From Lunularia cruciata (Eukaryota; Streptophyta; Marchantiopsida; Lunulariales; Lunulariaceae), in assembly GCA_948567375.1 (NCBI GenBank), contig OX419756.1, positions 35,726,333 to 35,790,332 on the forward strand: DNA of 64,000 nucleotides, in the 5' to 3' direction. The position numbers and the translations under genes were made by a program. Within the stretch, counting starts at the first letter, position 1. Every line of letters starts with the position of its first letter. Below the pieces are notes generated by a model, which was not told where the DNA came from, made no database searches, and was given only the letters and a program-made list of their open reading frames with translations. This document shows, in pieces, positions 7,221-58,397 of the stretch.

Positions 7221-7276
7221 TAACTCTCCTCAAATTCTCCTTGTGCAATTGGCTTGATCTGCACCACAAAAGTAAA

Positions 7277-7516: not shown

Positions 7517-7539
7517 CTGGCTATTCTTAGGTATCTTAC

Positions 7540-8423: not shown

Positions 8424-8428
8424 CTTCT

Positions 8429-37397: not shown

Positions 37398-37821
37398 TGT
37401 ATTAATATGAAGATAACAACAAAGTTAGTCAAGGCTAACAAAGTAGTGAATAGGCCAAATTAGCATATGATATCCTAGAAGTATTTAGGAAGCTTCTTGG
37501 GAAGATTCCTACTAGCTTAGCTTGCACCCCAAGTAAGTAGTTTCTAGAAGGAAGCTTCTAGAAACTTCCAACCAATTTAGTTGCATGCCAAGTAGGTGGC
37601 TTCAAGAAGGAAGTGTCTTGAGAAGCTTCATGGTTAACTTGGCTTGCACTCAAAGAAAGTGGCTCAAGTAAGCTTCTTGAGAAGCTTCTCAAGAGCCTTG
37701 TATGTTCCCTATAAATACAAGAGCCAAAGCTCATGCTAAGCATCAGGAGTTTTCCCACATTCAAGTGTCCCAATGTGATCTTCTATTCTCCTATTTCTCT
37801 ACTTGGTCTTGATTATTTATA
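37398..37821 (+). repeat. 5' LTR of chromovirus A
   Basis: Begins TGTATTAATATG, ends TTATTTATA before TTGGTATCA. Contains repeated GAAGCTTC palindromes and TATAAATAC near 37711. Confidence 0.88.
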
Positions 37822-37822
37822 T

Positions 37823-37837
37823 TGGTATCAAAACAAG
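37823..37837 (+). other. Primer binding site of A
   Basis: TGGTATCAAAACAAG, two bases after the LTR, is close to TGGTATCAGAGC, complementary to initiator tRNA-Met, the usual plant LTR-element primer. Confidence 0.75.
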
Positions 37838-37839
37838 AA

Positions 37840-38990: not shown

Positions 38991-39091
38991 GCCACCTACT
39001 AGGAGCTGATTGGTTTGAATGGGATTGAGGCTTGACCTATGCAAGTTTGCTTCACTTGCAAGGTATAATATCTAATTGAGGTTGTAGGATT

Positions 39092-39472
39092 TTGGTTGAT
39101 TCTAGAAGTTTTGAGAATGACATGTTTATGCAAGTAGAAAAGGAATTGGCTATTCCTATCAAGCCAATAATTGGAAGTAAATTGATGATGGCGGATGGTA
39201 GAAAGGGTTCTACATTCCGTACCTCACATCTTGTTACCTTCAAGATTGGGAAGGAGTATTTGGAGTGTATAAGGTTTGTAGTAGCACCTCTACACTACAA
39301 TGTCATACTAGACTACCTTGGCTTGAACATCATAATGTTCAATTTGATTGGACCCGATGACAAATTCAAGTACAACACCAAGGTAAGAATTTCCAATCAG
39401 GTTTTTTGGCACCTCGGAGTAAAACACCTAAGAATAGTCAATCTTGGGATGGGAAGTTTATCAAGAAGGTAG
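39092..39472 (+). pseudogene. Protease of chromovirus A
   Basis: Open frame with KLMMADGRKGSTF and VAPLHYNVILDYLGL, colinear with C. The active-site region reads DSRS instead of DSGS, so the glycine is lost. Followed by the three-unit 60-bp array (39442-39621). Confidence 0.75.
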
Positions 39473-39669
39473 CCATAAAGCAAGCTTTGAAGGGAGATGA
39501 GTCCCATGATAAGAAGTTTGCTAGGAAGGCAGCCAAAGAGCAAGCTTTGAAGAGAGATGAGTCCTTAGATGAGAAGTTTTTTATGGAAAGCATCCATAGA
39601 GCAAGCTTTGGAAGAAGATAAGTCTATTTTTGCAATGTGGATCAAGCCAATTGCACAAGGACAACCAGA

Positions 39670-41270
39670 GGAGGATCAAGAGCATCATCAATCAATGGTT
39701 GATCAAATTGTTCAAGAGTTTGTGGATGCATTTCTGAATGATCTGCCAAAGGGATTACCCTCTGATCGTGGTATGTCCTTCAAGATTGAGTTATTACCAA
39801 GGAAAACTCCAATGAGTAGACCAATCTATTGGCTCTCACCAAAGGAGTTGGGGGAGTTGCAAAACACACTTACAGAGTGGTTGAAGAAGGATTTTATATG
39901 ACATAGTACTTCTCCTTGGGAAGCACCGGTATTATTTGTTCAGAAGAAGGATGGAGGATTTCAATTTTGTATTGATTATTGTGTGCTCAATAAGCAAACA
40001 ATGAATAATGCATATCCCTTGCCTCGGATCAATGACTTGCTTGATCCATTGAGTGAAGCATGATACTTCTCTAAGTTAGATCTTCACAATGGCTATTGGC
40101 AACTCCACATTGATAGGGAAGATGTGCAAAAGATGCCTTTTGCACAAGGTGTGGGCATTTTGAGTGGAAAGTTCTACCTTTTGGGCTCACTAATGCTCCA
40201 ATAGTCTTCATGGACCAGATGCATCTGGTGTTGGATGGACTATTGGATCGGTATGTAGTGGTATTCTTGGATGATATCTTAATCTATAGCAAGACAAAGG
40301 CATAACACATGAATCATACGCAAGAAGTCCTAAGACGACTACGACAATGGAAATTTTACTACAAGAAGTTGAAGTGTACCTTTTGGCAAAAGGAAGTTAC
40401 CTTCTTGGGTCACAAGATCTCATGTGAGAGGATCAAGATGGAAAAGGAGAAAATCAAGGCCATTACTAATTGGCCTACTCCAAAGGATGCTACAGATTTC
40501 AGGAAATTTAATAGATGAGCCAATTTTTACTGATGGTTCATCCATTATTATGCTCATGTGGCTGCACCATTGACTGACCTCTTGGAGAAGATCTTGAGCT
40601 TTTAGTGGACCACCAAGCACAAAGAAGCATTCCAAAAGTTGAAACATATGGTGTCTTTGAGACCCATTCTCCAACCATATGATCCTCAACTACCTTTTGT
40701 GATTGATTTTGATGCTTATAACTTTGCAATTGGATTCTTGCAAGAATTGTTGTAGCAAGAATTCCTAAATGGACTGCATCCCATTGCCTTTGTGTCTTGC
40801 CGACTAAATATAGCTAAAAGAAATTACTCTGCTTGAGATCAAGAACAACTTGCAATGGCATATGCCACCAAGGTATAGAGGCATTACCTCTTGGGGAAAC
40901 AAGAGATCATGCAAACTGATCACAAACCATTGTTGTAGACCATACACATGAAGAGTCAACATCAACAATAAGAGAAGCGACGCCAATTGTTTGATATCAA
41001 ACTTGAGTACAAGCCAGGTTGGTTCCATGTCATCCTTGATGCCGTATCATGATGACCTGATTTGAAGTCTCTTCCTCTCATCACGATGGAAATTACAACA
41101 ATGTCAATTGACTCCAAGGTCCAAAATGAGTTTTGGTCAACTCTACAACAAGATCTCTTCTTCCAGATGGTAAATGGTTGTCTTGAAGCATGCAACAAGG
41201 AGTAAAATACCTTCTCCTTCAAGGAATGCATTTTATTCCATGAGGACAAGATCTATGTTTCAGCCAAAGG
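39670..41270 (+). pseudogene. RT and RNase H of chromovirus A
   Basis: RT starts with FKIELLPRKTPMSRPIYWLS near 39780; PFGLTNAP-like at about 40180; the catalytic FLDDILIYS at 40263-40289. RNase H follows with DFDAYNFAIG near 40708 and a TDHKPLL stretch near 40917. Multiple stops (for example TAG and TGA within WTTKHKEA-like and LLQT-like segments) and frameshifts. Confidence 0.8.
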
Positions 41271-41289
41271 TGATCTTTGACTTGTGCGC

Positions 41290-42429
41290 CTTCAAGAAGC
41301 CCATGATTTACTAATTGCTAGTAACATGGGTATGGACAAGACCTGAGTACTCTCCAATGCCAATAATGGTAGCCCAACATGGCACAAGATGTTTGGGTGT
41401 TTTTCTGGTTGTGTGAGAGTTTCCAATGCAACAAGGCCAATAACCAAAAACCGAGTGGACTCCTTCAACCACTCCCCATTCCATCTACTCATTGGGAACA
41501 TGTGAGCTTAGATCTCATCACCTCCTTGCCTAAGACAAAGCAAGGTCACACCAAAATTGCAGTGTTTGTGTGTAAGCTTAGTAAGCAAATCCATTTGGTA
41601 CCAATAGTTAATATTTTGGATGCTCCAACCTTGGTGCAAATCTACTTTAACAACATATTTAAGCATCATGGGCTATTGCATGTTCTCATCTCCGACCGTG
41701 ATCCCCACTCCACTAGAAAATTTTAGCAAGCACTCTTCTAGATACTTGGCACCAAGATTGCTTTGTCCACGGCCTATCATCTTCAAACTGATGGAAAAAT
41801 TGAACGTTAAAATTGCACCTTGGAAGATATGCTTTGTGCTTTTGTCAACATTCACCATACCAATTAAGAATGTCTTGCAGCTACGGAGTTTGCATACAAT
41901 AATTCTAAACATGCAAGCACATGATTCCCTTCTTTCTTTCTCAATTTTGGCCAAGACCCACTTGTTCCAGATTCCCTTCTTGCTCCTCCTCCATCTCATA
42001 TCCCTCATACTTCTATATCTTGACCACCATCTCCTAATCCCTCCAACAAGCCAAATCTTATCTCCTTGTTGCTTAGAATTGGTAGAAACAATATAGAGAT
42101 CACCATTCTTGTGATCTCAACTTTCATGTTGGTGATAAGGTCATGCTCTCATTCAATAACCTTCCTCTCCCACTTGATACCCAAGTTTGTAAACTTGCCC
42201 CTAATTGAATAGGACCCTTTGATGTCACCCAAATTGTTTCTCTTGTTTCTTATTGACTTGCCTTACCTTGTCATATGCACATCCATCTTGTCTTTCATGT
42301 TTCCAAGTTGAAACCCTTTGTTCCTAACCCATCTTCTTTTTCCTCTTGAGTCCAAGCTCTTCCTCCTCCTGTCCTTACAATGATCATGAGGAGTATGGAG
42401 TTGATTGTATCCTTGTACATTGCCACATT
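41290..42429 (+). pseudogene. Integrase of chromovirus A (5' part of chromodomain included)
   Basis: Blocks SCESFQCNKANNQKPS near 41410 (zinc-binding region), EHVSLDLITSLPKTKQG near 41498 (first catalytic Asp in SLDLIT), ISDRDPHS near 41690 (second Asp). The frame then breaks up. Ends in the chromodomain-proximal region at 42429 where element B begins. Confidence 0.75.
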
Positions 42430-42904
42430 TGTCATGCCATTTATAGTGTCGCATCTAGATTACTTGGACATTGGAGTTGCAGTGATAGTAGTTAGATATT
42501 TTAGTAGTTTCCCATAGATTACTTTCCGACGGTCAGGTTTCATGTTTGGGGTACTGGCTTCATGGTGGATCCCACAATCACTTTGCACCATTCACACCGT
42601 TGAGTGTGCCATCAACAAGACCGTTAGAATTCCGGACCTAGCTCGAGTCCAAGGGTATACTTTTGAAGTGCAGCTCTAGAGAGCTCATTTCTCTGATGAG
42701 CTCTCAAGAGAGCTCATCAGAGAAATGAGCCTTTGAGTTCCTAGCTATGGTAGACAGAGGCTGACGAGCGTCACTTGGATTCTCTTAGCTAGAGTGGATG
42801 TGGCTTGATTATAATAAGTGCCCAATTGTTGGCAGTTTATAGAGTGAGAGATCAAGTATTGATCTTAGTTGAGTTGATTTGAGTGTTTTAAAAAATTTGA
42901 TTAT
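42430..42904 (+). repeat. 5' LTR of B, lacking the first ~110 bp
   Basis: Colinear with 57253-57690 (for example GTTGCAGTGATAGTAGTTAG, GATTACTTTCCGA, GGATTCTCTTAGCTAGAGTG). It lacks the ~110-bp start block present at 57148-57252. A 22-bp-arm perfect hairpin (42683-42730) is absent from the other LTR. A TATATCAAAGAAATG word at 42903 is a possible decayed tRNA-Met primer site. Confidence 0.8.
42683..42730. repeat. Perfect 22-bp inverted repeat in B's 5' LTR
   Basis: Arms 42683-42704 and 42709-42730 are exact reverse complements with loop CAAG. The 3' LTR has only a single-arm equivalent (near 57500), so this is a private inverted duplication. Confidence 0.95.
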
Positions 42905-43924
42905 ATCAAAGAAATGAAGTGAAGGGGAAATCGGGTACAAGAATTAAGAGTGTTGGTGGTATCTCCAAGACTCATTGATCATTGGTAGCTAGATCGGAGC
43001 TCAGGTTTTCCCTAGTGTGCAAAAGCTTGTTCAATTGATATAGATTTGGTAGTGAGATAGACGGTATGCGGAAGTGATGGCCAAATTTCAAGCAAAGAAG
43101 AAGTAAATTTCAAGCAATGGTTGTGATTTTGAGCTTAGGAGGTGAAGACAAGACCAATTTGTTGCGAGTTGGGCTTAGAAAGTTTTGTCAAATTTGGAGA
43201 GGGTTCAAAGTTTGAGGAGTTTAGCCAAATTTGGAGAGGGTTTGAAGTGCCAAGAAGAAAGGCTTCATTTAGCTTAATTTTGGCATTTAGAGGCATAGTG
43301 CTACGTGCTATGAGAGGCTTCAAAAGCCTAGAAGGGCCAACAAGCTGGTGTGAAACTAGCTAGTTTAGAGTAGATCTTGGTCATTGTTTGGCAAAATGTG
43401 CCCATCTTGCTAGATTGTGCACAACAAGGTTTGACCCCTAGATCTCTTGTTCCTAGACTGGTGCCCTAGCCAATTGGTCTACCCTCACTTGTTATCCTAG
43501 TGATTGTGCCACTGTTATCTATACACTTGTAGTTTTGGCTAGGAGAGGCAGTTTGATCCCATTCTTGGTGATCTTGGTATCTTAGGATGTAGATATAAAT
43601 TCTCTTATGTCAAATGCCAAATTGTGGTAGAGTCAGTCCTGTGTTACTTTATGAGATGGAGTGTTTTTGTTTAGATTTCTTGTGATTGGACCCCCTCCAT
43701 TCTCCACTTCCTATTTGTGCACCACGTTTGTGTGAGGTGCACTAAATTTAGGGTGTTGGTGTTTTGGTCTGCTCTCAATTGTGAGGCTAGAGTGATGACC
43801 AGTCAGACTACTTTTGTTTCTCCCTGGTGAGGTAGGAAGTGATGACCTGTAGACCGTGAGAGTGCATGTTGTGATGGCAAGTTATAGGTTGCCTTTTCCC
43901 CTAGTCTAGTTATCTCAGTTAGGG
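42905..43924 (+). other. Leader of element B
   Basis: Untranslated-looking region between LTR and gag. A short direct repeat (AAATTTGGAGAGGGTT near 43190 and 43227) is present. The longest frames are about 73 codons and unremarkable. Confidence 0.5.
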
Positions 43925-45340
43925 TTACATTAGCGGGTGGTGTTCCATGGGTATTAGGACTTGGTGGTGCCCAATTGGTGTTGGTACTTGGTGTTGTAGT
44001 TCTTGCAGTACTTGCAGTTCCGGTTGCAGTTGGTGGTTCCGGTTTGCGGTCACTTTGTCACAATGGAGTTCTTTGGGGATTCCAAAGGAGTAAGCCCTGC
44101 AGTACACAATGGGTTTACTTGGAGTGGTGCTTGGTATCTGCTTGTATCTCAGGTCCCAGTGAGGAAGGAGATTGACTCTAAGTTGGAGTTTGACATAAGA
44201 GCTGATTCAATTGAGAGTGCCCTTGGTGTGTCTGCACAATTGTTATGGGACATGGATGAGATTAATGGGGACTCCAAAGGCCCTAGGTGTTACTTTGGTA
44301 TAGTGGTACCATTGAGTTGGATGACTTCATCCAGAAGTTTGATAGTTAGTGTGATTTGCAATAGATGCAAAACCCAACTTTGTTTACACCTTTCATGCAA
44401 TGGAATGGGTTATTTCATCACTTGGAGTGTCCGCCAATGGATGACTACCATGAGTTCAAGAGAGCACATTTGGAGGAGATTGAGTTATAGAGACAATATT
44501 GGTCTCCAAACTATATCTTTATCACTTCAAGGTTGGTTGCCAAGAGTAGATGGGTTGTACCCACAAGTTCTAGCTCAAGTAGTGTTGGTGGAGCTAGTGG
44601 AGATGCACTAGCTAGAGATAGTGCTACCACAAGTGGAGGTACCACTGCAAGAGGTGGTGTGGTATCGGGGTTTAACCCCATGATGGATTTCTTCTAGTGT
44701 TTGAGGCAAAACTACCAGGGAGTACGGACTGACAAGCTGAGGAGCTTGTAGAAGTTCTAAAAAATGGCTGGAGCAAGGCACACACTTGCATGAGGCAGCT
44801 GATCAGTTTCACTCAGGGAGTTATTGAGGCCCACATAGTCCTGTTTTGGTATGGGATACTAGATAGGGAGTTGCAACATAGCTAGTTCATGATGCTATGT
44901 TGTTACATGCTACTTCGCCTACTTTGGTAGTGGTCTGTGGTTGGGCTAAGCGTATTGAGCTCAACATGGTAGAGGAGGGTGGTGACATCTGGATTTGGTA
45001 GGGAGACCTCATCTACAACAATTACTTCTTATAGAGTGTAGTAGACTACACCATGCCTAGTTGGTTTTTGAGGATAAGGTGGACAGCCCAGATCCTGTGG
45101 AGCAAGTGAAGGGCCTACTGTAGTTAGACCCTTACCTTCCTTTTTAGGTCAACATTAGCCAATGAGTAGTAGTGTTGCTTGTTGGACTTGTGGTGGACCT
45201 CACCATAGGAGAGAGTGTACTCAAGGCAACAGACCTGATACATTTGGTGCATCACAGCTAGCACAAAGGCAGTGTGAGCATTGCCACAGATTTGGTCACA
45301 CTAGTGACCAGTGCTTTGACCTACACTCGGAGTTATAGAG
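43925..45340 (+). pseudogene. Gag of element B with two zinc knuckles
   Basis: A G/V-rich start, an open frame to 44611, then capsid-like residues near 44690-44960 (CLRQNYQGVRTDKL; LVVVCGWAKRIELNMVEEGG, typical of gypsy gag). Two CCHC units follow at about 45180-45325: CWTCGGPHHRREC and CEHCHRFGHTSDQC. Stops (Trp and Gln positions) interrupt. Fragment F on the left carries the same double knuckle. Confidence 0.75.
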
Positions 45341-45497
45341 TGGTAGGGCTACTATGGCAGGTAGTAGAGGAGCTCCAGTTCATGGAGTACAAGGTGGTAG
45401 AGGAAGTGGTAGATGATCTATACCTAGTAGGGGTGCAGTACCTTCTCCTACTTTTGATACAACTATGGCTACTCGGATTGAGTAGTTAGAGCAGAGA

Positions 45498-46449
45498 TTG
45501 GCTAGTATGGCCATTGCTCAAAGGAGATCAGATTTAGGTGTTGCAGCTTCCACCTCACATGCTTGTGATAGAGATGCTTTGGACTTCATGTGCAAAGCAG
45601 CACAAGTAGATACATCTGTAGCAGTGACTAGGAGTCCAGTACGTGCTCATGAGCCTAGAGAAGCATCACTGGAGTTGGACCCACAGAGAGGAGAGGTTGG
45701 GAGACAAGTCAGATTTCCCTAGTCTTTCATGCTATTTGAGGCATTGCATACAACATCCATGGCTCCTAGACGTCCTAGTGTAGGTGTGGTAGGTGGTGAT
45801 GGGGTGCATGATGGACTACCTATTAGTCAGCCACCAGTTATTACAAAAACTAAGTTGAGCATGATGTTGGGGGCGGCTCAACTGGTTATACAATGCCCTT
45901 TATTTTCAGCCAGTGACATGTTTACATTGGGAGTTAACTCAGCCCTAGTGTTCTGGTTGGGTGCCACACTTTGTGAGAGTAGGGATGATGTAGTTCCTAC
46001 TACTAGAGCAAAGGTGGTTGATAGTGGAGGTGACTTGGTTGAGGAACATGGGATCCGTTCAACAACCAATGCTTTATGGTAGGAAGCAGCGGCTACACTA
46101 GAGGAGTTGCTAGCTAGACCGCCCTTTGAGAGAGCACGGTTCACACCTGGTGTTATCCCATTTGATAACCAAAGTGGGATTTTCCACTTGGTGGGACCTT
46201 CAAGGAAGGTCTATACACCATAGAGAGTCTTGTTAGACTCTGGTGCATAGCCTCTTATGTTGTGGAAGGCTGTAGTAGTCGGTCTAGAGTTACGGAAGAT
46301 TGATGTGGAGAGGTGCCCATTTCAGATCTAGACATCTCTAGGTGGTGGTTCAACACTAACATCACACATGAGGAGCCTATTTTCCAAGTTCAACCTGGTC
46401 ATCTGACTGATAGCTCAGTGGTGAGAGCTCAGGCTATTACAACAATAGT
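45498..46449 (+). pseudogene. Spacer and protease of element B, interrupted by C
   Basis: Open frames 45498-45722 and 45729-46082 (MAIAQRRSDLG; KLSMMLGAAQL) form a spacer of unknown role, also present in F. Near 46222-46262 VLLDSGA-stop-PLML is the retropepsin active site with intact D-S-G; the stop is at a Gln-type position (TAG). The domain is cut at 46449 by chromovirus C and resumes at 52083 with YDVLVGGAMFYPMGF. The join is exact once the TGAGT duplication is counted. Confidence 0.8.
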
Positions 46450-46454
46450 TGAGT
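46450..46454. repeat. Target-site duplication TGAGT of chromovirus C
   Basis: TGAGT at 46450-46454 and 52078-52082 flank C exactly. Confidence 0.95.
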
Positions 46455-46863
46455 TGTAACAATATGGAGTTTAGCAATGAAGTTAGTCGGGCTTATGAAG
46501 AAGAGAATAAGACAAAATAGCCTAGAATATTCTAGAAGCATCTAAGAAGCTTCTTGGGAAGCTTCTTAACTAGTTAACTTGTGCCCTAAACAGGTAGCTT
46601 CTAGAAGCTTCTAACTAGCTTAGCTTGTACACCAAGTAGTTGGCTTCTAGAAGGAAGCTTCTTGAGAAGCTCCCTAGTTAACTTGGCTTGCACTCCAAGA
46701 AAGCGGCTCAAGGAAGCTTCTTGAGAAGCTTCAAGGATCTTGTATGCTACCTATAAATACCAAAGCCGAAGCTCATGCTAGGCATTTGGAGTTTTCCCTC
46801 ATTCAAGTGTCCCAATGTGAGTTTCTATTCTCCTATTTCTCTCCTCGGATTCGGTCTTTTACA
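46455..46863 (+). repeat. 5' LTR of chromovirus C
   Basis: Starts TGTAACAATATGG and ends TTTTACA. TATAAATA at 46752-46759 is a good TATA box. Dense GAA/TTC modules include TTCTAGAAGCTTC at 46599-46611, matching the alternating nGAAnnTTCn pattern of heat-shock elements. Confidence 0.95.
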
Positions 46864-46864
46864 T

Positions 46865-46879
46865 TGGTATCAAAGTAGG
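46865..46879 (+). other. Primer binding site of C
   Basis: TGGTATCAAAGTAGG begins one base after the LTR; close to the initiator tRNA-Met complement. Confidence 0.85.
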
Positions 46880-46880
46880 A

Positions 46881-48060
46881 ATGGGATGGATGGAATTTAT
46901 GGACCACCAAATCCACTTCCGCCAAACCATTGGGACTTTCATGTCCAGATATTACCAAAGCATTGCTTCACACAAATCATCATCTCGCGCTTTGAGCAAG
47001 ATTTTCTACATATGATCACCGTGTCAAAGGAACCCTTGATACTTCCAGTTGTAACTTATGGAGAATGGGGGACGTGTTGTATCTATGTGTTAATCAACTA
47101 GATAAATTGAGGGTAGTGGAATAGAGTCGTAGTAATGCCGGCAATACCGGATGTTATCCTTGCAATGCAACAACAAATCAAGCATCTTACTCAATTGTGG
47201 ATGAACGAGACCAGCAACAACAAGAACAGATAGACAGAGCGCCAGTTCAAGATGGAGAAGATCACATTTGATTTCCGAAACCCAAGGTGTTTGAAGGCAA
47301 GAATCTTCCAAGCATAGTGGAGAATTTTGTGTTTGACTACGAACGCTACTTTGAAGCCACCAATCTTCAAGACAAGCGGAAAAAAATTCTCTTGGCTTCT
47401 AGCCAATTGGATGGCATGGCAAAACTTTGGTAGTGATTCCGAGTAGAAAGATTTGAACAACAAATTATTACACCGATTTTGACATGGGCAGAATTCAAAG
47501 ATGCAATACTTGGTTGATTTCAAACTATAAATGCCACCTGAGCTGCACAATATAAATTGGCAGAGTTGAGGCAAATTGGCTGAGTGAGAAGCTAAATCAG
47601 ACAATTTTAGAACATCATCATGCAAATTCCAGATATTCAAGAAGGTGAAGTTCTGGATCAATTTGTGCGAGGATTGAAGTCACAAACCAAATTGGAGGTG
47701 ACCATGCGGGAGCCACAAAATGTAGAAGAAGCCATGCAATTGGCTGAGCATTTTGATTCCTTGGTTACGACAACTTGGTCTGGACCTTGACATACACAAA
47801 GCCTACCAGTACACTACGCACGAGTGGAAGAACCGGTACCAATGGAGATTGATGTTATCCAACGAAGATCACTTGGCATAGTAGATAGAGAAAGATTACG
47901 ACAAAATGGAGGCTACTTTTATTGTCACCAAGTTGGACATTGCATTGCAGAATGTCCACTTAGGAATGGGTGACCTCGACAAGTTGCCCAGATGGAGTTT
48001 GTGGAACAGAATGATCAAGGAAACAAAGAATCCCTGTATGAGATTTTGAGCCGCCTATTG
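46881..48060 (+). pseudogene. Gag of chromovirus C
   Basis: Begins at ATG 46881 just after the primer site. Capsid residues appear in broken frames (FVRGLKSQTKLEV near 47663). The zinc knuckle at 47914-47955 reads YFYCHQVGHCIAEC: the first Cys is Tyr (TAC, a G-to-A change), so RNA binding is lost. Confidence 0.78.
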
Positions 48061-48065
48061 GTAGC

Positions 48066-48770
48066 TTGATTAGTTCCAATGGGATTGAAGGCTTGACCTA
48101 TGCAAGTTTGCTTCACTTGCAAGGTACAATATCTAATTGGGGTTGTAGGATTTTGGTTGATTTTGGAAGTTCAAAGAATTGTATGTCTATGCAAGTAGCA
48201 AAGGAATTGGGTATTCCTATCAAGCCAGTGTTTGGAAGTAGTTTGATGATGGCGGATGGTAGAAAGGGTTCTGCATTCTACACCTCACATCCTGTTACCT
48301 TCAAGATTGAGAAGGAGTATTTGGAGTGTATGAGGTTTGTAGTGGCACCTCTACACTATGATATCATTTTGGGTCTACCTTGGCTTGAACATCATAAGGT
48401 TCAATTTGATTGGACCCGACAACAAATTCAAGTACAACACCAAGGTAGAAATTTCCAATTAGGTTGTCTGGCACCTCTGAGTAAGACACCTAAGAATAGT
48501 CAGTCCCAATATGGGAAGTTTGTTGAGAAGGTAGCCATAGAGCAAATCTGGAAGGGAGATGAGTCCCAAGATGGGAAGTTTACCAAGAAGGCAACCATGG
48601 AGCAAGCTTGGAAGAGAGATGGGTCTTTGGAAGGGAAGTTTGTTAATGAAGCGGCCATAGAGCAAGCTTTGGAGGAAGATAAGTCTTATTCGTGGTGTGG
48701 ATCAAGCCGATTGCACAAGAACAATCTGAGGAGGGCCAAGAGCCTCACCAAGCAATGGTTGATTGGATAG
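48066..48770 (+). pseudogene. Protease and tandem-repeat spacer of chromovirus C
   Basis: A 234-codon frame. Residues 27-37 CRILVDFGSSK hold the retropepsin motif, with DFGS in place of DSGS (TCT-to-TTT-type change). Later SSLMMADGRKGSAFY and VAPLHYDIILGLPWLEHH complete the fold. Three 20-residue modules (48504-48683) follow. The frame shifts near 48690; the correct frame continues toward RT and meets a stop at 48827. Residues before about 20 may be read through from gag, so the first ATG is not the true start. Confidence 0.85.
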
Positions 48771-48832
48771 TTCAGGAGTTTGCAGATGTGTTTCTGGATG
48801 ATCTGCCAAAGGGATTACTCTCCAATTGAGGT

Positions 48833-50341
48833 ATGCCCTTCAAGATCAAGTTATTGCCAAGGAGTACTCCAGTGAGTAGACCAATCTATCGGCTCTCACC
48901 AAAGGAGTTGGAGGAGTTGCGAACAACACTTACAGAGTTGTTGGAGAAGGATTTCATACGACATAGTACCTCTCCTTGGGGAGCACCGGTACTATTTGTT
49001 CCAAAGAAGGATGGAGGACTTCATTTTTGTATTGATTATCGTGGACTCAATAAGAAAACCGTGAAGAATGCATATCCCTTGCCTTGGGTCCATGACCTGC
49101 TTGATCAACTAAGTGGAGCACGCTACGTTTCCAAGCTGGATCTTTGTAGCGGCTATTGGCAAATTCCTATTGAAGGAAAGGACATGCAAAAGATTGCTTT
49201 TTGCACAAGGTATGGACATTTTGAGTGGAGAGTTCTACCTTTCGGACTCACTAATGCTCCAACAGTCTTCATGGATCAGATGCATCGGGTGTTGGAGGGA
49301 CTATTGGATTGGTCCGTGGTGGTGTTCTTAGATGATATCTTAATCTATAGCAAGACAAAGGCAGAACACGTGAATCATGTGCAAGAAGTCCTAAGACGAC
49401 GACGACTATGGAAATTTTATTGCAAGAAGTCAAAGTGTGCTTTTTGGCAGCAAGAGGTTACCTTCTTGGGTCATAAGATCTTATTAGAGGGGATCAAGAT
49501 GGAAGAAGAGAAGATCAAGGCCATTATTGATTGGTCTACCCCAAAGGATGCTACAAAAGTACGAGCATTCAATGGATTGGCCAATTTTTACCGATGGTTC
49601 ATCCACTATTATGCTCACGTGGTTGCACCATTGACTGACCTCTTGGGAAAGAACTCGAGCTTCCAGTGGACCACCATGCATGAAGAAGCATTCCAGAAGT
49701 TAAAGCATATGGTGTCTTCAAGACCCATTCTTCAACCATATGATCCTCAACTACCTTGTGTGGTTGATTTTGATGCTTCTAACTTTGCAATTGGAGCTGT
49801 GTTGCAACAAGAATTTCCAGATGGACTACATCCTATTGCCTTTGTGTCTTGCCTATTAAATACAGTTGAAAGAAATTACTCTGCTCGAGATTGGGAACAA
49901 CTTGCAATGGTATATGGCACCAAGGTATGGAGGCATTATCTCTTGGTGAAACACGTGATCATGCAAACTGATCACAAGCTATTGTTGCAGACCTTACACT
50001 TGGAGCACATGAAGAATTGGCATCATCGATGGGAAGAGCAACTCCAATTGTTTGACATCAAAATTGAGTACAAACCAGGTCTGTTCCATATCATCCTTGA
50101 TGCTCTATCACGACGACCTGATTTGAAGGCTCTTCCTCTCATCACGGTGGCAATTACAACGGTGTCCATTGACCCTAAGGTCCATAATGAGTTTCAATCA
50201 GCTCTACAACAAGATCCCTTCTTCCAAATGGTACATGGTTGTCTGACTGCATGCAACAAGGAATACAACACCTTCTCCTTCAAGGAAGGCCTTTTATTCC
50301 ATGCAGACCAGATCTATGTTCCAGCCAAAAATGATCTTTGA
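48833..50341 (+). pseudogene. Reverse transcriptase and RNase H of chromovirus C
   Basis: A 502-codon frame, the longest in the window. RT: SRPIYRLSPKELEELR, HFCIDYRGLNKKTVKNAYPL near residues 62-82, [15 protein letters not shown], then FLDDILIYS at residues 165-173 with the catalytic DD at 49331-49336. RNase H: DFDASNFAIGAVLQQEF (first Asp), MQTDHKLLLQ and the ILDALSRRPDL end. It stops at TGA 50339, a CGA-to-TGA change, after which integrase continues in the same frame. The first Met is internal to the polyprotein. Confidence 0.93.
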
Positions 50342-50344
50342 CTT

Positions 50345-51427
50345 GTGCACCTTCAAGAAGCCCATGATTTACCAATAGTTGGTCACATGGGAGTGGACAA
50401 GACCTTGGGCACCCTCCAACACAAATGGTGGTGGCCCAACATGACACAAGATGTTCGGGACTTTGTCCAATCATGTGAGAGTTGCCAACGTAACAAGGCC
50501 AGCAACCAAAAGCCGAGTAGACTCCTTCAACCACTTGCCATTCCATCCGCTTGTTGGGAGCATGTGAGTTTGGATCTCATCACATCCTTGCCAAAGACCA
50601 AACAAGGATACACTGCAATTGTGGTGTTTGTGGATAAGCTTAGTAAGCAAATCCACTTGGCACCAACTTGTGATACCGTGGATGCTCCAACCTTAGCATA
50701 AATCTACTTTGACAATGTCTTCAAGCATCATGGGATGCCATGTGTACTCATCTCCGATCGTGATCCTTGATTTACTAGGAAGTTTTGGCAAGCACTCTTC
50801 CAAATACTTGGCACCAAGCTTGCTTTGTCCACGGCCTATCATCCACAAACTGATAGACAAACCAAACGTGCAAATCATACATTGGAGGATATGTTGCGGG
50901 CCTTTGTCAATGTCTACCATATCAATTGGGATGAATGTCTTGCAGCTGCAGAATTTGCCTACAACAATTCCAAACAGGAAAGCACCAAAGTTTCTCCCTT
51001 CTTTCTCAATTTGGCCAAGATCCGCTTGTTCTAGATTCTCTTCTTGCTCCTCCTCCCTCTCAGATTCCTCATACTTCCACATTCTTGATCACTATATCCC
51101 AATCTCTCCAACAAGCCAAGTCTCATCTCTTTGTTGCTCAGAATTGCCAAAAACAATATGCGGACCACCATCGTCATGATCTCACCTTTGAAGTTGGTGA
51201 TAAAGTCATGTTATCCTCTAGTAACCTCCCTCTCCCACTTGATACCCAAGTTCGTAAACTTGCTTCTAATTGGATAGGACTCTTTGATATCACCCACATT
51301 ATCTCTCATGTTGCTTATCGACTTGCCTTGCCTTGTCACATGCGGATCAATCCTATCTTTCATGTTTCCAAGTTGAAACCCTTTGTTCCTAACCTCTTCC
51401 TTTTCCTCTTGAGTCCAACCTCCTCCT
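50345..51427 (+). pseudogene. Integrase of chromovirus C
   Basis: HHCC zinc domain: AHDLPIVGHMGVDKTL with SCESCQRNK. Catalytic core: HVSLDLITSL (Asp 1) and LISDRDP (Asp 2, near 50752). The expected Glu in the TDGQTERAN-type motif is Lys (TDRQTKRANHTLE, about 50850-50890), a G-to-A change that would abolish activity. Stops at 50699 (CAA to TAA) and 50768. The GPY-type tail (EVGDKVML; PLPLDTQVRKLASNWIG; HVSKLKPFVPN) reads at 51190-51400. Confidence 0.9.
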
Positions 51428-51660
51428 TTGCCAGTCCCTATCAACAATCATGAGAAGTACAAAGTTTATTGTATCATTGCATGTTGCCATATTCAACAAG
51501 GCCGTTGCCAACATACAAAGTACAAGGTCCTTTGGAAAGGGTATCCCCTTCATGATGCCACATGGGAACCTCTTTCACACCTCCAAAATGCACAAAGGGC
51601 CATCAAGGAATTCAAAGCTTCACTGGCGACGAGGACGTCACCAACTAGTGGCGGGGGAAT
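51428..51660 (+). pseudogene. Chromodomain of chromovirus C
   Basis: Across two frames: EKYKVYCIIACCHIQQG, then TKYKVLWKGYPLHDATWEPL and QRAIKEFKASLA. The KVLWKGY...TWEP core is diagnostic. This reader domain directs integration to methylated-histone chromatin, fitting its landing in other retrotransposons. One frameshift near 51495. Confidence 0.9.
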
Positions 51661-51661
51661 A
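51650..51661 (+). other. Polypurine tract of C
   Basis: GGCGGGGGAATA immediately precedes the 3' LTR, as required for plus-strand priming. Confidence 0.85.
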
Positions 51662-52077
51662 TGTAACAATATGGAGTTTAGCAACGAAGTTAGTCGGGCT
51701 TACAAAGAAGAGAATAAGACCAAATAGCCTAGAATATTCTAGAAGCATCTAAGAAGCTTCTTGGGAAGCTTCCTAACTAGTTAACTTGTGCCCTAAGCAA
51801 GTAGCTTTTAGAAGGAAACTTCTAGAATGCTAGCTTAGCTTGCATGCCAAGTAGGTAGCTTCTAAAAGAAGCTTCTTGAGAAGCTTTCTGGTTAACTTGG
51901 CTTGCACTTCAAGAAAGCGGCTTAAGGAAGCTTCTTGAGAAGCTTCAAGGGTCTTGTATGCTACCTATAAATACCAAAGCCAAAGCTCATGCAAGGTATT
52001 TGGAGTTTTCCCTCATTCAAGTGTCCCAATGTGAGTTTCCATTCTCCTATTTCTCTCCTTGAATTCGGTCTTTTACA
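51662..52077 (+). repeat. 3' LTR of chromovirus C
   Basis: TGTAACAATATGG...TTTTACA, colinear with the 5' LTR, with the same TATAAATA and GAAGCTTC modules. Confidence 0.95.
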
Positions 52078-52082
52078 TGAGT

Positions 52083-52573
52083 CATATGATGTGCTAGTTG
52101 GAGGAGCAATGTTCTATCCCATGGGTTTCAGTTTCGACTATTGGGAGGAGACAACCTCCTATAGAATAGGTTGGCAGTCTAGTGAGGGACAAGTATGTTG
52201 CCTACTAGTATGCTTTAGTAGTGGTAGTAATGGGTCACTCTAATCCAAGACCATGGCAACATCAGTTTCAGCTTTCAGTGGTGCAGTTACTTGGCCTGGT
52301 GATTTATTAGAGTGGAATGCCCATGCAGAGGATACTCTAGTACTAGAGGAGATCACTTGGATTTGGAGTACAAGTGAGATTGTTCCATCTACCTTGGATG
52401 TTCGATTGTGGAGTTTAGAGGAGGCATTGCAACAACATGCAGATCAGTTGGTGCAGCATGCTTGGAGTGGAGCCTTTGTACCACCAAGAGATGAGTGTGA
52501 GGATGAGCTTCCAGAGCCAATTACCTTGACACCTCTGGATACCACACTCATTGCTTGGCAGTATCCTATAGAA
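52083..52573 (+). pseudogene. Protease end and linker of element B
   Basis: YDVLVGGAMFYPMGFSFDYW ends the protease. The linker (MATSVSAFSGAVTWPGDLLEW..., from 52253) is acidic and hydrophobic with no family I know; fragment F contains the same linker, so it is ancestral to B. It leads in frame into the methyltransferase at 52574. It may be a structural N-terminal extension of the enzyme. Confidence 0.6.
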
Positions 52574-53510
52574 GGAGTATGTCTATTGGAGTTGTTTAGT
52601 GAGATTAGCACCAGACTAGTTGCGGTCCTACAAGTGGGTATACGAGTACATAGGTACTTGTATGTGGAGAGAGATGAGACTACTAGGTGAGTCTCTCTAC
52701 ACCATATAGCGCACTTGGCCTATTGATATCTGGAGTTATTATGGATGTCAACAGTCAAAGGTTACCAAAAGGTCATACCAACAGACATTTCTTTATTGGG
52801 GTGTATGATTTGGAGAGACATGGGCCTATTCACTTGGTGATTTTTGGATGGCCATGTCAAGGACATACATGTGTTGGCCAAGGTTTGGGTCTTCAGGATC
52901 CTTGTTCAGGTGTGTTTTGGGAGACATTACGGATACTACGACATCTCTAGGTTCATCAGTCCCTTTCTCTGACCTACCTTTTAGAGAACACTCCTTTGAT
53001 GGGTGATTCTTGCACCAGAGTGGTGGTAAGTACACATCATATCCATTCTTGGATGGGACTTGCTACATTGTTAGATGCAGCTAGAGTGGGATCATAGGCT
53101 CATTGTCTTTGTCTTTGGTGAACAAACCTCTTACCCAAAGAGGTTCTACAACGTGCATATGATGGGATTCAATGACTAGACCATATCCTTTTTGATGACA
53201 TCTTGGATGTGCGGTGTTAGTCTCAAACGGTGGTAGTGGCTGATAGGTCACCTATGGCTATGGTGAACCTAGTTGGACAGCCTAGAGCCACTTTTCTCAC
53301 ACTTATGAGTTTCCCAAGCTCTCATGCTTTTTGAGAGGGAGGACTTGGACTTGTTTAGGACTCATAGTTATAGCAACTAGTGGAGACCAATGCCAATGAG
53401 AGAGAGCATGCAATGGGTTTTTGCACTGGTATTACCAATATTCTAGCAATATCAGAGGCATCAGGTGTTAGGTCAGGCTATGGACCTAAACTGTTTGACC
53501 TAGATTGTGA
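52574..53510 (+). pseudogene. C5-cytosine DNA methyltransferase domain in element B
   Basis: Would transfer a methyl group from S-adenosylmethionine to cytosine C5. Motif I: CLLELFSEISTRLVAVLQ (52580-52633), decayed F-S-G-I-x-T-G. Then RYLYVERDE (52652-52678). Motif IV: DLV-type strand and GWPCQGH (52846-52866), catalytic Cys at 52855-52857, intact. Motif VI: LLENTP (52978-52995), the E-N pair. Motif VIII: AHCLCLW (53098-53118), where Cys codons TGT stand at the usual Arg positions (CGT-to-TGT). MGFCTGITNI near 53412 precedes motif X, VLGQAMDLN (53465-53491). Order, absence of a long recognition domain and length (~310 residues) are most like DNMT3-type enzymes. Frameshifts near 52790 and 53450 and several stops disable it. 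It lies between protease and RT of one element. Confidence 0.85.
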
Positions 53511-54069
53511 GCTTTGATTTGGCAAAGCAGCATAGGATGAGCTTGATAGGCATCACGCTTGGACGCTTGTGAGCCTTGTGCCTATCAAGACGATTCAAGC
53601 ACATGCTGGGGACGATGGACCGAGTGGACATGGTATTCTTGGGACACAACTATAAGCTACTAAGGAGAGTGGTCTACTTGGAGTCCATTCAGGTGAGAGT
53701 GGGCTACTTGGATTACACCCTTGGTCCACTTGGGATGCAGCTAGAGGACATGTGGAGCTTACAGCTGGAGTGGAGGGAGTTTTTCACAAAGAGGTTGGAA
53801 CCACTAGTGGTCGAGAGCATGACATTACTGCTCCCAAGGGCCCAGTGTAGCAGCCAGTCAATATGTCTTCCACTCCTACAAAATTTACAGAGGATACTTG
53901 GGAGCAAGCCAGATCTTGGACCCAAGTTCACAAGAGAGGAAAGATGGAGAGTTTGGAGGTTCTTGAGGAGTGACACGAGTTGTTTTGCCTTTAGTATGAA
54001 GGATTTGGTTCTCTAAAGGGACTTGGTACACGGATTGAGCTATTTAGCAATACATAAATTTTATGACGT
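53511..54069 (+). pseudogene. Region between methyltransferase and RT in B
   Basis: The open frame 53576-54016 continues from the methyltransferase (FDLAKQHRMSLIGITLGRL, stop, then KHMLGTMDRVDMVFLGHNYK). Its end, SCFAFSMKDLVL, resembles the F-A-W/F-S-x-x-D-L segment that opens gypsy RT. No catalytic motif between; it may be connector. Confidence 0.6.
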
Positions 54070-54980
54070 CCTTATTGCTATAGTGACATGGAGAGGAAAT
54101 TAATTCAGAGCCAAAGTAGAGACCTTTTTGAAGTTGGTTTGGTGGAGATCTCACATGGAGAGTATGCATCAACTACAATGATGCCAGCCAAGAAGGATAT
54201 GCATGGCAACTACACAAATAGGCAAATGTGTGGAGATTATTGTCCTATCAAGCAACAGACTAGGGCTAATTGGTATGCCATGCCTACACTAGAGGAGATT
54301 TTTGATGCGATTGGGCATGCAAAGGTCTTCAATACTTTAGATCTTTGAGCGAGATATCATTAATTGCCAATCAAGGAGGAGGATAAGTCCAAGATAACAT
54401 TTTAGGCTATTGATCCTCATGGCAAAGATATGTCATATTAGGGGAGGTTCTTACCATTTGGATTAAAGAATGCTCCTACTGAGTTCTAGAGGGTCATGGA
54501 TAGGATCCTAGCTGGATTGGATTTCGCTCGATGCTATATTGATGACATTTTAGTCTATAGCACTACTATGGAGGAGCATGAGAGAAAGTTGTTGGACATG
54601 TTTGAGAGCTTGGGATCTCATGGACTCAAATTACATCTTGGGAAGTGTAGGTTCTTTCACAAGCAGGTTGAGTATTAGGGTCACACTATCTACCCTAGAG
54701 GACTTGGTGTTCATCAAACCAAGGTGAAGGCTATTGCACTTATTCCTTGGCCTACAAATGTAAGCAAAGTACGAGCATTCCTTGGGTTGGCAAACTTCTA
54801 TTGCCGCTATGTTAGAGGATTGAATGCCATTGCCAAGGCCTTGACAAAGTTGACCAAGCTAACACAAGAGTGGTGTTAGGGAGATGAGCAGGAGAGAGCT
54901 TTTGTAGAGCTCAAGGAGAGGTTGACATCTTCTCCTATTTTGAGGAGATCGATTAGAGGACGACCATTTTAGGTTCATAC
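54070..54980 (+). pseudogene. Reverse transcriptase of element B
   Basis: MPAKKDMHGNYTNRQMCGDY near 54181-54240, RFLPFGLKNAP near 54445, and CYIDDILVYS at 54532-54561 with the catalytic DD intact (54541-54546). Then GKCRFFHKQVEY, a TAG, GHTIYPRG, and ALIPWPTNVSKVRAFLGLAN (thumb). Stops at 54346, 54401, 54439 and 54487 are at Arg/Gln/Trp-type positions. The frame is otherwise nearly continuous, so decay is mainly point mutation. Confidence 0.88.
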
Positions 54981-55310
54981 TGATTGGAGTATGTTGAGGC
55001 TTGGAGCGGTGCTCACCCAACATGATGATGAGGAGAAGGAGTTTGTGGTTGCCTATGCTAGTTGCTCCAACAATTCAATGGAGGCAAAGTATAGTTCATA
55101 TGAGGGAGAGTGCTTGGCAACAATTTGGGCAGTAGCACATTTCCGATGTTACCTATTTGGTAACCCCTTCACTCTCATCATTGATCATCAGCCGCTGAAG
55201 TGGTTGATGGAGTCCAACAAGCTTTCAAAGAAGCTTGCACAATGGGCTCTAATTTTACAAGAGTATCATTTCACGTTGTTCACAGACCTGAAGTGGTGAA
55301 CCGTGATACA
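54981..55310 (+). pseudogene. RNase H of element B
   Basis: HTDWSMLRLGAVLTQHDDEE (Asp 1 region), YSSYEGECLATIWAVAHFR (Glu), TLIIDHQPLKWLMESNKLS (Asp 2), continuing to VHRPEV-like sequence shifted out of frame near 55290. Follows RT directly. Confidence 0.85.
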
Positions 55311-55559
55311 GATGGGTTGAGTAGAAACCTTTGTCCAAGACAGTAGGATTAGACTAGAGCATGTTAGCATGGTGAGACAGATGAGGAGATGGTGCCAGGT
55401 TGGCATGCATTGGCCTTTCTATGTATATGTTTTGAGGCTTTGGTGGTATCTCTCCCAACGCATATAGGAGGAGTTATTGAGGTCACAGATCCAAAGAGTG
55501 AAGATATTGGTATAGTTCAGCGAGACATTCATGGTGACGTCTTAGTGATGGACTATCTT

Positions 55560-56700
55560 CACACTAATGTTGTGGGTGGCACAATTGGTGGCTAGGAGAG
55601 AGATCATGTTCTTCAACAAGCCAAATGGTTCAAATTGGAGGGCATACACCTTTTGTGTGTTTGGGAGGATGGTAGAGTGAGAGTAGTACCATTTCCATCT
55701 CAGAGACTAAAGTTGGTTCGTCATGCTTATAAGGAGCTAGGACATTTTGGAGTAAAGCACACATATAGCTTACTCTAGAGTCACTATTGGTGGCAAGATA
55801 TGCAGACCAAGGTACAACAATTTGTTGCCAAATGTGTGGTTTGTGACCAAGTTAGAGCATCATTCAATGCTCCTACACGACAGTTACACCCATTACCTAT
55901 CATAGGATTGGATTACCATTGGAGTTTGGACTTTGCTAGACCTTTACCATTGACTGGAAGATATCATTGGTATGTTTTGGTGATGGTGGAGCACTTCTCC
56001 AAGTGGATTGAGTTGGTGGCACTTCCTGACAAGTCCACTGAAGGGACGGCTTACTTGTTCTTAGATCAAGTTCTTTGTCATTTTGGTGCACCCATTGAGG
56101 TTTTGACTGATCAAAGTATAGAGTTCTTTGAGGAGTTTCAGGTCTTGTGTGACAAGGCTTTGATTGATCGTCATACTACATCCCGAGATCACCCTAAGAC
56201 AGATGGCTTAGCAAAGAGAGTGGTTTAGACAGTGAAGAGAGGATTGCAAAAGTATGGTTTGTAGAGAGGCCACTTTGGAGATTAGGATCTCCAATTACCT
56301 TGGTTGGCCATGGGCTATCGATTCAACCGGCAAGCCTTCTTAGCATCCTTCTCTCCTTACTTTCTACTCTATGGACGAGATCCAAATTACCTATAGCCAT
56401 TCGTCGAGATGCTACTGTAATCTTGGACTTGGATGATCCAAATGTATGGGTGAGTGCATGTTCTCAAAAGGCATAGATCTTTTGGAGAGTGATGCCGATG
56501 GCCTTTGAGAACTTGGCAATTGCTTAGCATAGGAATACCTTACATTATGCTACTGTATGACTCCTTATAGGTTATAGGAGGTTATAGACCCTTGATCCAT
56601 CGATTTCATTTAGGTGACTATGTTTATCTACAGCAAATAGCACCAATGACACTTGATGTTTTGACAAGCCGCACTATCTTGAGAATGTGCAAGGTTTTGC
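55560..56700 (+). pseudogene. Integrase of element B
   Basis: Zinc domain: HAYKELGHFGVKHTY (two His) with CVVCDQVRAS (two Cys), 55721-55860. Core: WSLDFARPLPL (Asp 1, near 55927), VLTDQSIEFF (Asp 2, near 56105). The catalytic Glu position in DGLAKRVV (near 56205) is Lys, the same G-to-A loss as in copy C; a TAG follows at the Gln-type position. Then YFLLYGRDPN and GDYVYLQQIAP (GPY-like). Stops in the C-terminal half. Confidence 0.85.
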
Positions 56701-56839
56701 CATCTAGATTCCTTGTGTAAGAAGGATGTGATGGTATTGTTTAAAAGGATCATGTGTGAAATTGTGCGCCATGCCACCTCCCAAACATTGATGGTACTAT
56801 GGACCCAAGCTTAGCACGTGTACATGCAGGCTTGAGATG

Positions 56840-56980
56840 TATATTATGTGGCTCTTTTGGTGGAGCGGCTACTATGTTAGTGTGTGATAGCTATTCAAGA
56901 GGATGGCATATGGCATGTATGACTCCTCCCCTCATGATGATTCCTCAAGGACAATGGTTATGTCCTAAATGTACTTGACC
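56840..56980 (+). pseudogene. PHD-type zinc finger at the C-terminus of element B
   Basis: Reads CILCGSFGGAATMLVCD, then SYSRGWHMACMTPPL, then PQGQWLCPKC. The spacing is that of a Cys4-His-Cys3 PHD finger, including the conserved Trp two residues before the last Cys pair; the fourth ligand is Tyr (TAT, from TGT by G-to-A). It is preceded in frame-compatible order by NCAPCHLPNIDGTMDP after the integrase. PHD fingers usually read histone H3 tails; here it occupies the place a chromodomain holds in chromoviruses. It ends at TGA 56978. Confidence 0.8.
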
Positions 56981-57147
56981 TACAACTAGTTCATTCTTTA
57001 TATGGCATAGATTGCAGACAAGCAACTAACAATGGGGCTCCATAGCACCCGGCCTTCTGATCTTTGCCAATCATAGGGTATACCATATACTTGGAGTAGA
57101 TGGCTATATGGAGTTAGAGGGACCTAACCGCCAGCTAGGGAGGCAAT

Positions 57148-57690
57148 TGTAGCAATTTAGAGTTTGTGTATGACTTTATGTGATTTGTGCTTCTATAGTG
57201 TATGTTGTGTAGCGATGTATATTGTGTAGCGATGTATATACACACAATAGTTTTCATGCCATTTGTAGTGTTGCATCTAGATTGCTTGGACACTAGAGTT
57301 GCAGTGATAGTAGTTAGAGGTATTTTAGCCATTTCCCATAGATTACTTTCCGATGGTCAAATTTTGTGTTTGAAGTATTGAATTCACGGTGAGATCAACC
57401 GTCACTTTGCACCATCAAGAGTGCCGTCAATAGGACCGTTAGGGTTCCAGACCTAGCTCAAGTCCAGGGGTATACGGTTGAAGTGCAGATCTAGAGAGCT
57501 TACTTCTTTGATGTTGAGCCTTCAAGTTCCTAGTTATGGTGGACAAAGGCCAGAGAGCGTCACCTGGATTCTCTTAGCTAGAGTGTTTGTGGCTTGATTG
57601 TAATCAGTACCCAATTGTTGGCAATTTATAGAGTGACAAATCAAGTACTAATGAATTGAGTTGATTCAAGTATTGTAAACAATTTGATTA
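57148..57690 (+). repeat. 3' LTR of element B
   Basis: Preceded by purine-rich AGGGAGGCAAT. It starts TGTAGCAATTTAGAG (block P, ~105 bp to about 57252) and continues with block Q (57253-57690), colinear with the 5' LTR. Confidence 0.75.
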
Positions 57691-57691
57691 T

Positions 57692-57795
57692 TGTGGCACT
57701 TTAGAGTTTGTGTATGACTTATGTGTGAGTTTTGCTTCTATAGTGTATGATGTTGAGAGTGATGTATGTTGTGTAGCGATGTAAATACGCACGAC
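57692..57795 (+). repeat. Extra copy of the LTR start block (P2)
   Basis: TGTGGCACTTTAGAG...CGCACGAC repeats 57148-57250 (for example TTTAGAGTTTGTGTATGACTT, GCTTCTATAGTGTATG, GTGTAGCGATGTA). It follows the 3' LTR and ends at the A-B junction, so the element's right end extends past the expected LTR end by the amount missing from its left end. Confidence 0.8.
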
Positions 57796-57796
57796 A

Positions 57797-57960
57797 CATT
57801 CAACAAGGCCATTGATAACATACAAAGTACAAGGTCCTTTGGAAAGGATATCCTCTTCATGATGCCACGTGGGAATCTCTTTCTCATCTCCAGAATGCAC
57901 AGTTGTCCATCCAAGAGTTCAAAGATTCATTGGTGATGAGGAAATCACCAACTAGCGGTG
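57797..57960 (+). pseudogene. Remaining chromodomain of chromovirus A
   Basis: ATTCAACAAGGCCATTGATAA onward corresponds to C 51491-51660 (TKYKVLWKGYPLHDATWEPL equivalent), ending in the polypurine tract GGTGGGAGAAAATA before the 3' LTR. This is the right half of the chromodomain region split by B. Confidence 0.85.
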
Positions 57961-57968
57961 GGAGAAAA

Positions 57969-58392
57969 TATAACAATATGGAGTTAGCAACAAAGTTAGT
58001 CAAGGCTAACAAAGTAGTGAATAGGCCAAATTAGCATAGAATATCCTAGAAGTATTTATGACGCTTCTTGGGAAGCTTCCCACTAGCTTAGCTTGTACCC
58101 CAAATAAGTAGTTTCTAGAAAGAAGCTCCTAGAAACTTCCAACTAGCTTAGCTTGCATGCCAAGTAGGCGGCTTCAAGAAAAAAATGTCTTGAGAAGCTT
58201 CCTGGTTAACTTGGCTTGCATTCAAAGAAAGCGGCTCAAGGAAGCTCTTGAGAAGCTTCTCAAGAGCCTTGTATGCTCCCTATAAATATGAGAGCCAAAG
58301 CTCATGCTAGGCATTCGGAGTTCTCCCACATTCAAGTGTCCCAATGGGATCTTCCATTCTCCTATTTCTCTCCTTGGTCTTGATCTTTTACA
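57969..58392 (+). repeat. 3' LTR of chromovirus A
   Basis: TATAACAATATGG...TTTTACA (TG start decayed to TA). Followed by TTCCT, then LINE L5. Confidence 0.9.
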
Positions 58393-58397
58393 TTCCT

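Follow-up and report, generated by a model that had tools for sequence, protein, structure and literature searches.

A DNMT3-type methyltransferase and an integrase-linked PHD finger in a split-repeat Ty3/Gypsy family of the liverwort Lunularia cruciata

A Gypsy retrotransposon that bears a DNMT3 gene together with DIRS-like repeats has already been published, namely KnitGypsy-Dnmt3 of Klebsormidium nitens, for which Ka/Ks values under 0.2 are reported (de Mendoza et al. 2018, PMC5890265). The same paper describes the capture of DNA methyltransferases (DNMTs) by retrotransposons in dinoflagellates and charophytes, to which the initial annotation of the locus studied here had referred. De novo methylation of CG by retrotransposon DNMTs is also reported there, which makes a writer step plausible for the liverwort family described below. 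Marchantia and Physcomitrella are absent from its main text, and the expectation of a further case or a new host lineage fits with this. A different chromatin-related module, the chromodomain, is the hallmark of chromoviruses (PMC3605345). The large genome of the liverwort Lunularia cruciata has been ascribed to bursts of Ty3/Gypsy elements (PMC9985172). A transposon bearing the silencing enzyme of its host is a paradox, the methyl mark being normally used by hosts for silencing.

The locus lies in a stretch of L. cruciata DNA of 64,000 nucleotides (the window), the 3' part of which consists of nested repeats: element A is inserted in element B, and B in an older A-type element (Table 1). A sits between two copies of its target duplication, TGAGT, and the empty site of this insertion is visible in a second, partial copy of B. 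Further A-type copies are found at the start of the window (5181-8436, minus strand). Searches among phages and viral contigs gave no match. In B, a Gypsy element, the methyltransferase (MT) is located between protease and reverse transcriptase (RT), as had been annotated, and exceeds the span originally assigned to it. The protease was recognized by its LLDSGA motif, a Pfam scan having given no protease match.

Table 1. Features of the window and their coordinates (position 1 is the first nucleotide of the window).
Feature	Position	Strand	Basis or remark
Second B copy, partial (gag to MT start), without element A	149-2578	-	71-75% identical to B
Older A-type element enclosing B	about 37404-42429 and 57797-58394		
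4-bp target duplication CATT flanking B	42426-42429 (left); 57797-57800 (right)		
Element B, Gypsy, split direct repeats, interrupted by element A	42430-57796	+	termini TGTC...GACA
Split repeat A1 of B	42430-42904	+	77.7% identical to A2
Two CCHC zinc knuckles of B Gag, CWTCGGPHHRREC and CEHCHRFGHTSDQC	45180-45314	+	same arrangement in P0007
Start of retropepsin-like protease of B, LLDSGA	46230-46448	+	by eye; 3' part resumes beyond A
Element A, a Gypsy younger than B and lying within it	46455-52077	+	LTRs 46455-46864 and 51662-52077, 91.4% identical
Decayed DNMT3-type C5-methyltransferase (MT) of B	about 52448-53536	+	frameshifts, stops, FGG to FSE, Arg to Cys
MT motif I, ELFSEISTRL	52589-52618		
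MT motif IV, GWPCQGH	52846-52866		Cys codon 52855-52857
MT motif VI, LLENTP	52978-52995		
MT motif VIII, AHCLCLW	53098-53118		
MT motif X, VLGQAMDLN	53465-53491		
ORF1 end of B, TAG then CAGCCA (CARYYA signal), TAGCAGCCA	53848-53856	+	
Reverse transcriptase and RNase H of B	54200-55300	+	Pfam RVT_1 3e-22, RT_RNaseH 2.2e-32
Integrase of B, H2C2 zinc finger and rve core	55600-56400	+	Pfam 1.6e-14, 4.5e-11
PHD finger, C-terminus of B Pol	56838-56972	+	Pfam PF00628 7e-9
Split repeat B1 of B	57146-57245	+	
Split repeat A2 of B	57251-57691	+	
Split repeat B2 of B	57692-57796	+	ends GACA

All five MT motifs of the initial annotation are present in the window copy in the order I, IV, VI, VIII, X; motifs I and X share one frame, motifs IV to VIII lie in another, and both arginine positions of motif VIII indeed read TGT. 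The proposed Pfam check (DNA_methylase) gave a divided answer. The 258-residue frame-0 piece of the window MT stayed under the cut-off (16.3 versus 22 bits, E 0.0067) and the piece bearing motif I had no Pfam match, whereas the intact relative P0001 passed (E 6.2e-11). P0001 is one of four database proteins retrieved with the 258-residue piece (E 2e-78 to 5e-44, 56-59% identity); of the other three, P0002 remained under the cut-off (0.00037) and P0003, from Marchantia paleacea, and P0004 had no DNA_methylase match. Ten longer relatives (E 1e-74 to 2e-26) originate from Marchantia polymorpha (eight), Sphagnum fallax (one) and a metagenome (one), and nine of them passed, the exception being the Sphagnum gene model P0014, which is without motif IV. 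Weak as the window piece is in Pfam, its identity as an MT is no longer doubtful because of these protein relatives, and by sequence comparison the five motifs are not due to chance.

The designation as DNMT3-like was borne out by comparison with proteins of known structure. The best PDB matches of P0001 are DNMT3A and DNMT3B, with 4onj (which we take to be a tobacco DRM), Arabidopsis DRM2, HaeIII and HhaI ranking below. When a profile of 16 MT rows was used, the first 29 of the 60 rows listed were DNMT3A, DNMT3B or DNMT3C, and these were followed by 4onj, HaeIII, a tRNA methyltransferase and HhaI, all ahead of Arabidopsis DRM2. The DNMT3A match to P0001 spans motifs I to VIII in order, with motif X appearing only in an insignificant second stretch; on this order the MT is DNMT3-like and not rearranged as in DRM. 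Judged from the PDB comparison, it is nearest to DNMT3 among characterised enzymes. In a tree of the 16 rows the window copy is placed, on a long branch, beside P0003 of M. paleacea (support 81/93, not starred).

Only the low score of the window copy in Pfam would suit a fragment of a host DNMT gene that is flanked by Gypsy sequence by chance. In the assembly to which the window belongs (565.77 Mb, 74 contigs), a motif-IV pattern allowing up to 3 mismatches found 3,353 sites, and the junction between a purine-rich stretch and repeat B1, which is expected once per element, marked 2,876 element 3' ends, likewise with up to 3 mismatches; both reversed controls gave 0. A genome search with Pfam PF00145 considered 2,161 candidates and scored 123 matches, every one above the cut-off and a few of them host genes. 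With P0001 as query, 13,361 candidates led to 111 scored matches whose identity was 72-74%, and the search for intact copies that had been called for thus uncovered eight open frames of 1,428 residues with no stop within the match. In a sample of 60 family 3' ends, drawn independently of MT presence, the MT was found at the expected place in 55; it was full length in one frame in 31, of which 3 were without a stop. These are the first 60 of 100 junctions listed, all on one contig (C1) and all exact matches, and the sample therefore represents young copies rather than the genome at large. Host DNMT-like exons differ at motif IV (e.g. GGFPCQDLS, GSPCNNLS, GGPPCQGAS). By eye, one of these four exons resembles a rearranged DRM (L002) and another a chromomethylase (L003), and the remaining two (L001, L004) read GGFPCQDLS. 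The carriage of the MT by 55 of 60 sampled members and the 3,353 motif-IV sites refute the host-fragment reading, to which we assign next to no likelihood; the MT is, as the initial annotation had supposed, a shared part of the element.

B thus belongs to a large Ty3/Gypsy family that has been active recently and has relatives in Marchantia and Sphagnum. At about 9.9 kb for a full copy, 2,876 copies amount to at most some 28 Mb or 5% of the assembly, so that the family accounts for only part of the growth of this genome. The window copy itself is dead. Apart from the damage listed in Table 1, its motif I reads FSE where P0001 has FGG, and among the sampled copies of the L. cruciata genome 48 of the 50 that are readable there retain FG; its motif VIII has TGT where most young copies have CGT; and in its PHD finger one zinc-ligand cysteine has become tyrosine (CDSY versus CDSC in young copies). 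Set against the young copy L019/L020, B shows 85-88% identity along the greater part of its length and 79-80% in A1, and its CpG observed/expected ratio is 0.20-0.25 as compared with 0.49-0.56 in a young copy.

Most of the sampled MT copies, that of the window included, contain stops or frameshifts, as would be expected of an MT that had been captured a single time and was carried along passively, with every copy decaying neutrally. Against this stand the eight stop-free frames of 1,428 residues among the 111 scored matches, the conservation among relatives (14 of 15 are 69-77% identical to P0001, P0029 being at 35%) and the distribution of variants in the 60 copies. Variants shared by at least four copies comprise 115 amino-acid-changing and 71 silent ones, private variants 255 and 86 (Fisher p 0.0027); with transversions only, the figures are 7 and 8 for shared versus 143 and 30 for private variants (p 0.003). 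The comparison excludes variants found in 2 or 3 copies as well as codons that could be read in under 20 copies, and the p values are guides only because sites are not independent (linkage was ignored) and deamination recurs, which can make independent changes look shared. The private ratio is close to neutral decay and the shared ratio is lower, hence selection appears to preserve the MT protein in the lineage that replicates. Shared variants being depleted of amino-acid changes, a neutral passenger is disfavoured and we regard it as very improbable, while retention of the MT by selection is, on this evidence, highly probable.

Selection might act on something other than catalysis. The MT could be kept for a role that does not involve marking cDNA, for example binding of DNA or RNA in the particle, with catalysis being secondary, or it could alter host methylation such that other copies are expressed. 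Some relatives depart from the catalytic motifs in a manner compatible with this (EKV for ENV in P0012; HHAR and HYPQ at motif VIII of P0006 and P0002, respectively; GWDCSN at motif IV of P0029). In L. cruciata, however, the catalytic cysteine is retained in all 52 readable copies of the 60 and the Glu-Asn of motif VI in 50 of 54, which makes such a role rather unlikely in our view. The first arginine of motif VIII is retained in 42 of 53 readable copies and the second in 28 of 54, with cysteine in 17; a change from arginine to cysteine is what CpG decay would make. Overall, C>T and G>A changes predominate whatever the context, with only a slight excess at CpG. This heavy decay may reflect methylation by the host, with no need to invoke the element's own MT.

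The intact form of the element was derived from ten young copies that were picked for long open frames and represented by separate 5' and 3' pieces. ORF1 encodes Gag, protease and MT and extends up to 1,428 codons from stop to stop. Pfam recognized the MT in both young copies scanned (1.9e-7 and 1.5e-7), and in both of them Pol consists of RT, RNase H, integrase and a PHD finger (2.2e-10 and 5.9e-11). The order of RT, RNase H and integrase after the protease (the latter by LLDSGA) is that of Ty3/Gypsy elements, but two complete identical LTRs are absent. At the 3' end of young copies B1 (about 107-110 bp) is followed by GC, A2 (about 450 bp) and B2, and A1 alone is found at the 5' end; in the window copy, too, no repeat B was found after A1. 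The order B1-A2-B2 was seen in 9 of 10 sampled copies, and 7 of the 10 have a full-length A1 at their 5' ends, giving seven complete A1/A2 and nine complete B1/B2 pairs. A1 and A2 are 97.3-99.1% identical in six of the seven copies and 88.2% identical in L017/L018. The elements end with TGTC and GACA, and perfect 4-bp target duplications flank six of the seven copies with both ends (all but L017/L018) as well as the window copy.

The repeat order A1-ORFs-B1-A2-B2 is therefore DIRS-like, whereas the footprint is that of a DDE integrase. Split direct repeats are shared with DIRS-like elements, but neither their tyrosine recombinase nor their lack of a target duplication was found. A DIRS element with tyrosine recombinase is ruled out by the integrase rve domain and the 4-bp duplications, and ordinary LTRs that have lost a B repeat are ruled out by the recurrence of the same 3' order in 9 of 10 copies. 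The purine-rich stretch lies directly before B1 and not before A2. In most of the pieces L009 to L028 the join of B1 and A2 reads GACA-GC-TGTC, resembling a circle junction in which 2 bases act as spacer, and may be a record of how the ends were copied.

The UAG codon at the end of ORF1 is followed by CARYYA in all ten young copies (TAG-CAGCCA in nine, TAG-CAGCTA in L015), with Pol continuing in the same frame. The frame after the TAG is free of stops from RT to PHD in L017/L018 and L019/L020. A single stop interrupts it in L009/L010, and in the six others examined the break comes earlier. In plant viruses, UAG followed by CARYYA constitutes the type I leaky-stop motif (PMC5382211), and we consider it likely that readthrough of the UAG is used in this family. 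The anatomy as a whole (Gag, protease and DNMT3, UAG-CARYYA, RT, RNase H, integrase and PHD in the same frame, split repeats, 4-bp duplications) is virtually certain. Readthrough stop, split repeats and PHD finger are features that go beyond the initial annotation.

The core GWHxxC of the PHD finger is present in all ten sampled young 3' pieces. A search with the stretch following the integrase retrieved 16 proteins, all with a Pfam PHD finger, which is partly so by construction because the query included the PHD stretch; in 15 of them the PHD is joined to an integrase rve domain. One of the 16, P0017, is a gene model of M. polymorpha in which MT pieces and PHD occur together, and MT, integrase and PHD occur in one metagenome ORF (P0029). 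By sequence, the closest PHD fingers in PDB include those of CHD4, PHF12, PHF21A, KDM5A/B and ATXR5, several of which recognize H3 tails that carry no modification at K4. The family PHD presumably lacks the cage tryptophan of H3K4me3 readers. Based on these resemblances, the PHD finger may target H3K4-unmethylated chromatin, a prediction that we hold to be slightly better than even.

Four distantly related metagenome proteins (P0023, P0024, P0025 and P0029) have a further domain in common after the PHD finger, formed by the C-terminal 170-200 residues. In P0023 and P0025 it contains the motifs DPF.G.G and TSPW/TSPP, which are weakly reminiscent of amino-methyltransferases and are altered in P0024 and P0029; Pfam matches of P0023 to D12 (E 0.0049) and Methyltransf_15 (E 0.0043) were both under the cut-off. 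This domain is possibly a second methyltransferase of the element. In P0025, P0027 and P0029 the MT, or its C-terminal end, is found directly before the integrase with no RT between, and the MT is therefore placed differently in this distant clade.

Taking the family anatomy, the Gag-level MT, methylation of self or target and steering by the PHD together, we arrive at a best explanation which we favour, with moderate confidence. Most ribosomes would stop at the UAG and the DNMT3 would be made within Gag-PR-MT, at the level of Gag, while a minority would read through to yield Pol. The MT would enter the virus-like particle and methylate either the newly made cDNA or, shortly after integration, the site of insertion; to such self- or target-site methylation, considered by itself, we give an even chance. 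The PHD finger would bind the unmodified H3 tail and steer the integration complex to silent chromatin. Instead of evading silent chromatin, the element would hide in it and help to build it. More tentatively, and with somewhat less than an even chance, it may be speculated that a Gypsy clade of the green lineage possesses a kit to write and read (a Gag-level DNMT3 via UAG-CARYYA and an integrase PHD), replicates in a DIRS-like and integrates in a DDE manner, marks its own cDNA, seeks H3K4-unmethylated chromatin and has given rise to one of the bursts of Gypsy elements by which a liverwort genome grew larger. There are thousands of copies of varied ages, some with long frames and many with a broken MT, so that the benefit of self-methylation is directly testable. 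The integrase-adjacent PHD finger provides a second, separable hypothesis on the place of insertion, and the combination of split repeats with 4-bp duplications raises the question how an element with a DDE integrase copies DIRS-like ends.

Among the literature matches listed, neither a liverwort DNMT-Gypsy nor an integrase-PHD Gypsy is mentioned in a title or in the beginning of an abstract. The Phygy and Selgy clades of moss and lycophyte are likewise Gypsy elements of non-seed plants outside the chromoviruses, with usual target duplications of 4 or 5 bp (PMC6317226), and neither methyltransferase nor PHD is mentioned in the main text of that paper. Chromoviruses share with B a chromatin-reading domain at the C-terminus of the integrase (PMC3605345), but in the B family a PHD finger takes the place of the chromodomain, none of which was detected by Pfam after the integrase of the window copy, its relatives or the young copies. 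SymbioDIRS-Dnmt3 of dinoflagellates resembles B in having a DNMT3 inside a retrotransposon with A-coding-B-A-B repeats (PMC5890265); it differs by its tyrosine recombinase, whereas the B family has a DDE-type integrase and 4-bp target duplications. The closest counterpart by description is KnitGypsy-Dnmt3. Klebsormidium was not named among the proteins retrieved by the MT and post-integrase searches, and the term PHD does not occur in the main text of the paper on this element, although the element may still carry such a finger. KnitGypsy-Dnmt3 and B have in common an unrearranged DNMT3 inside a Gypsy element, a DIRS-like repeat order and constraint on the MT. According to the paper, however, the MT of KnitGypsy-Dnmt3 is part of the Pol ORF, while that of the B family precedes the UAG which separates MT from RT. 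Compared by description, the B family is further distinguished by its liverwort host, the PHD finger after the integrase, the 4-bp duplications and its thousands of copies.
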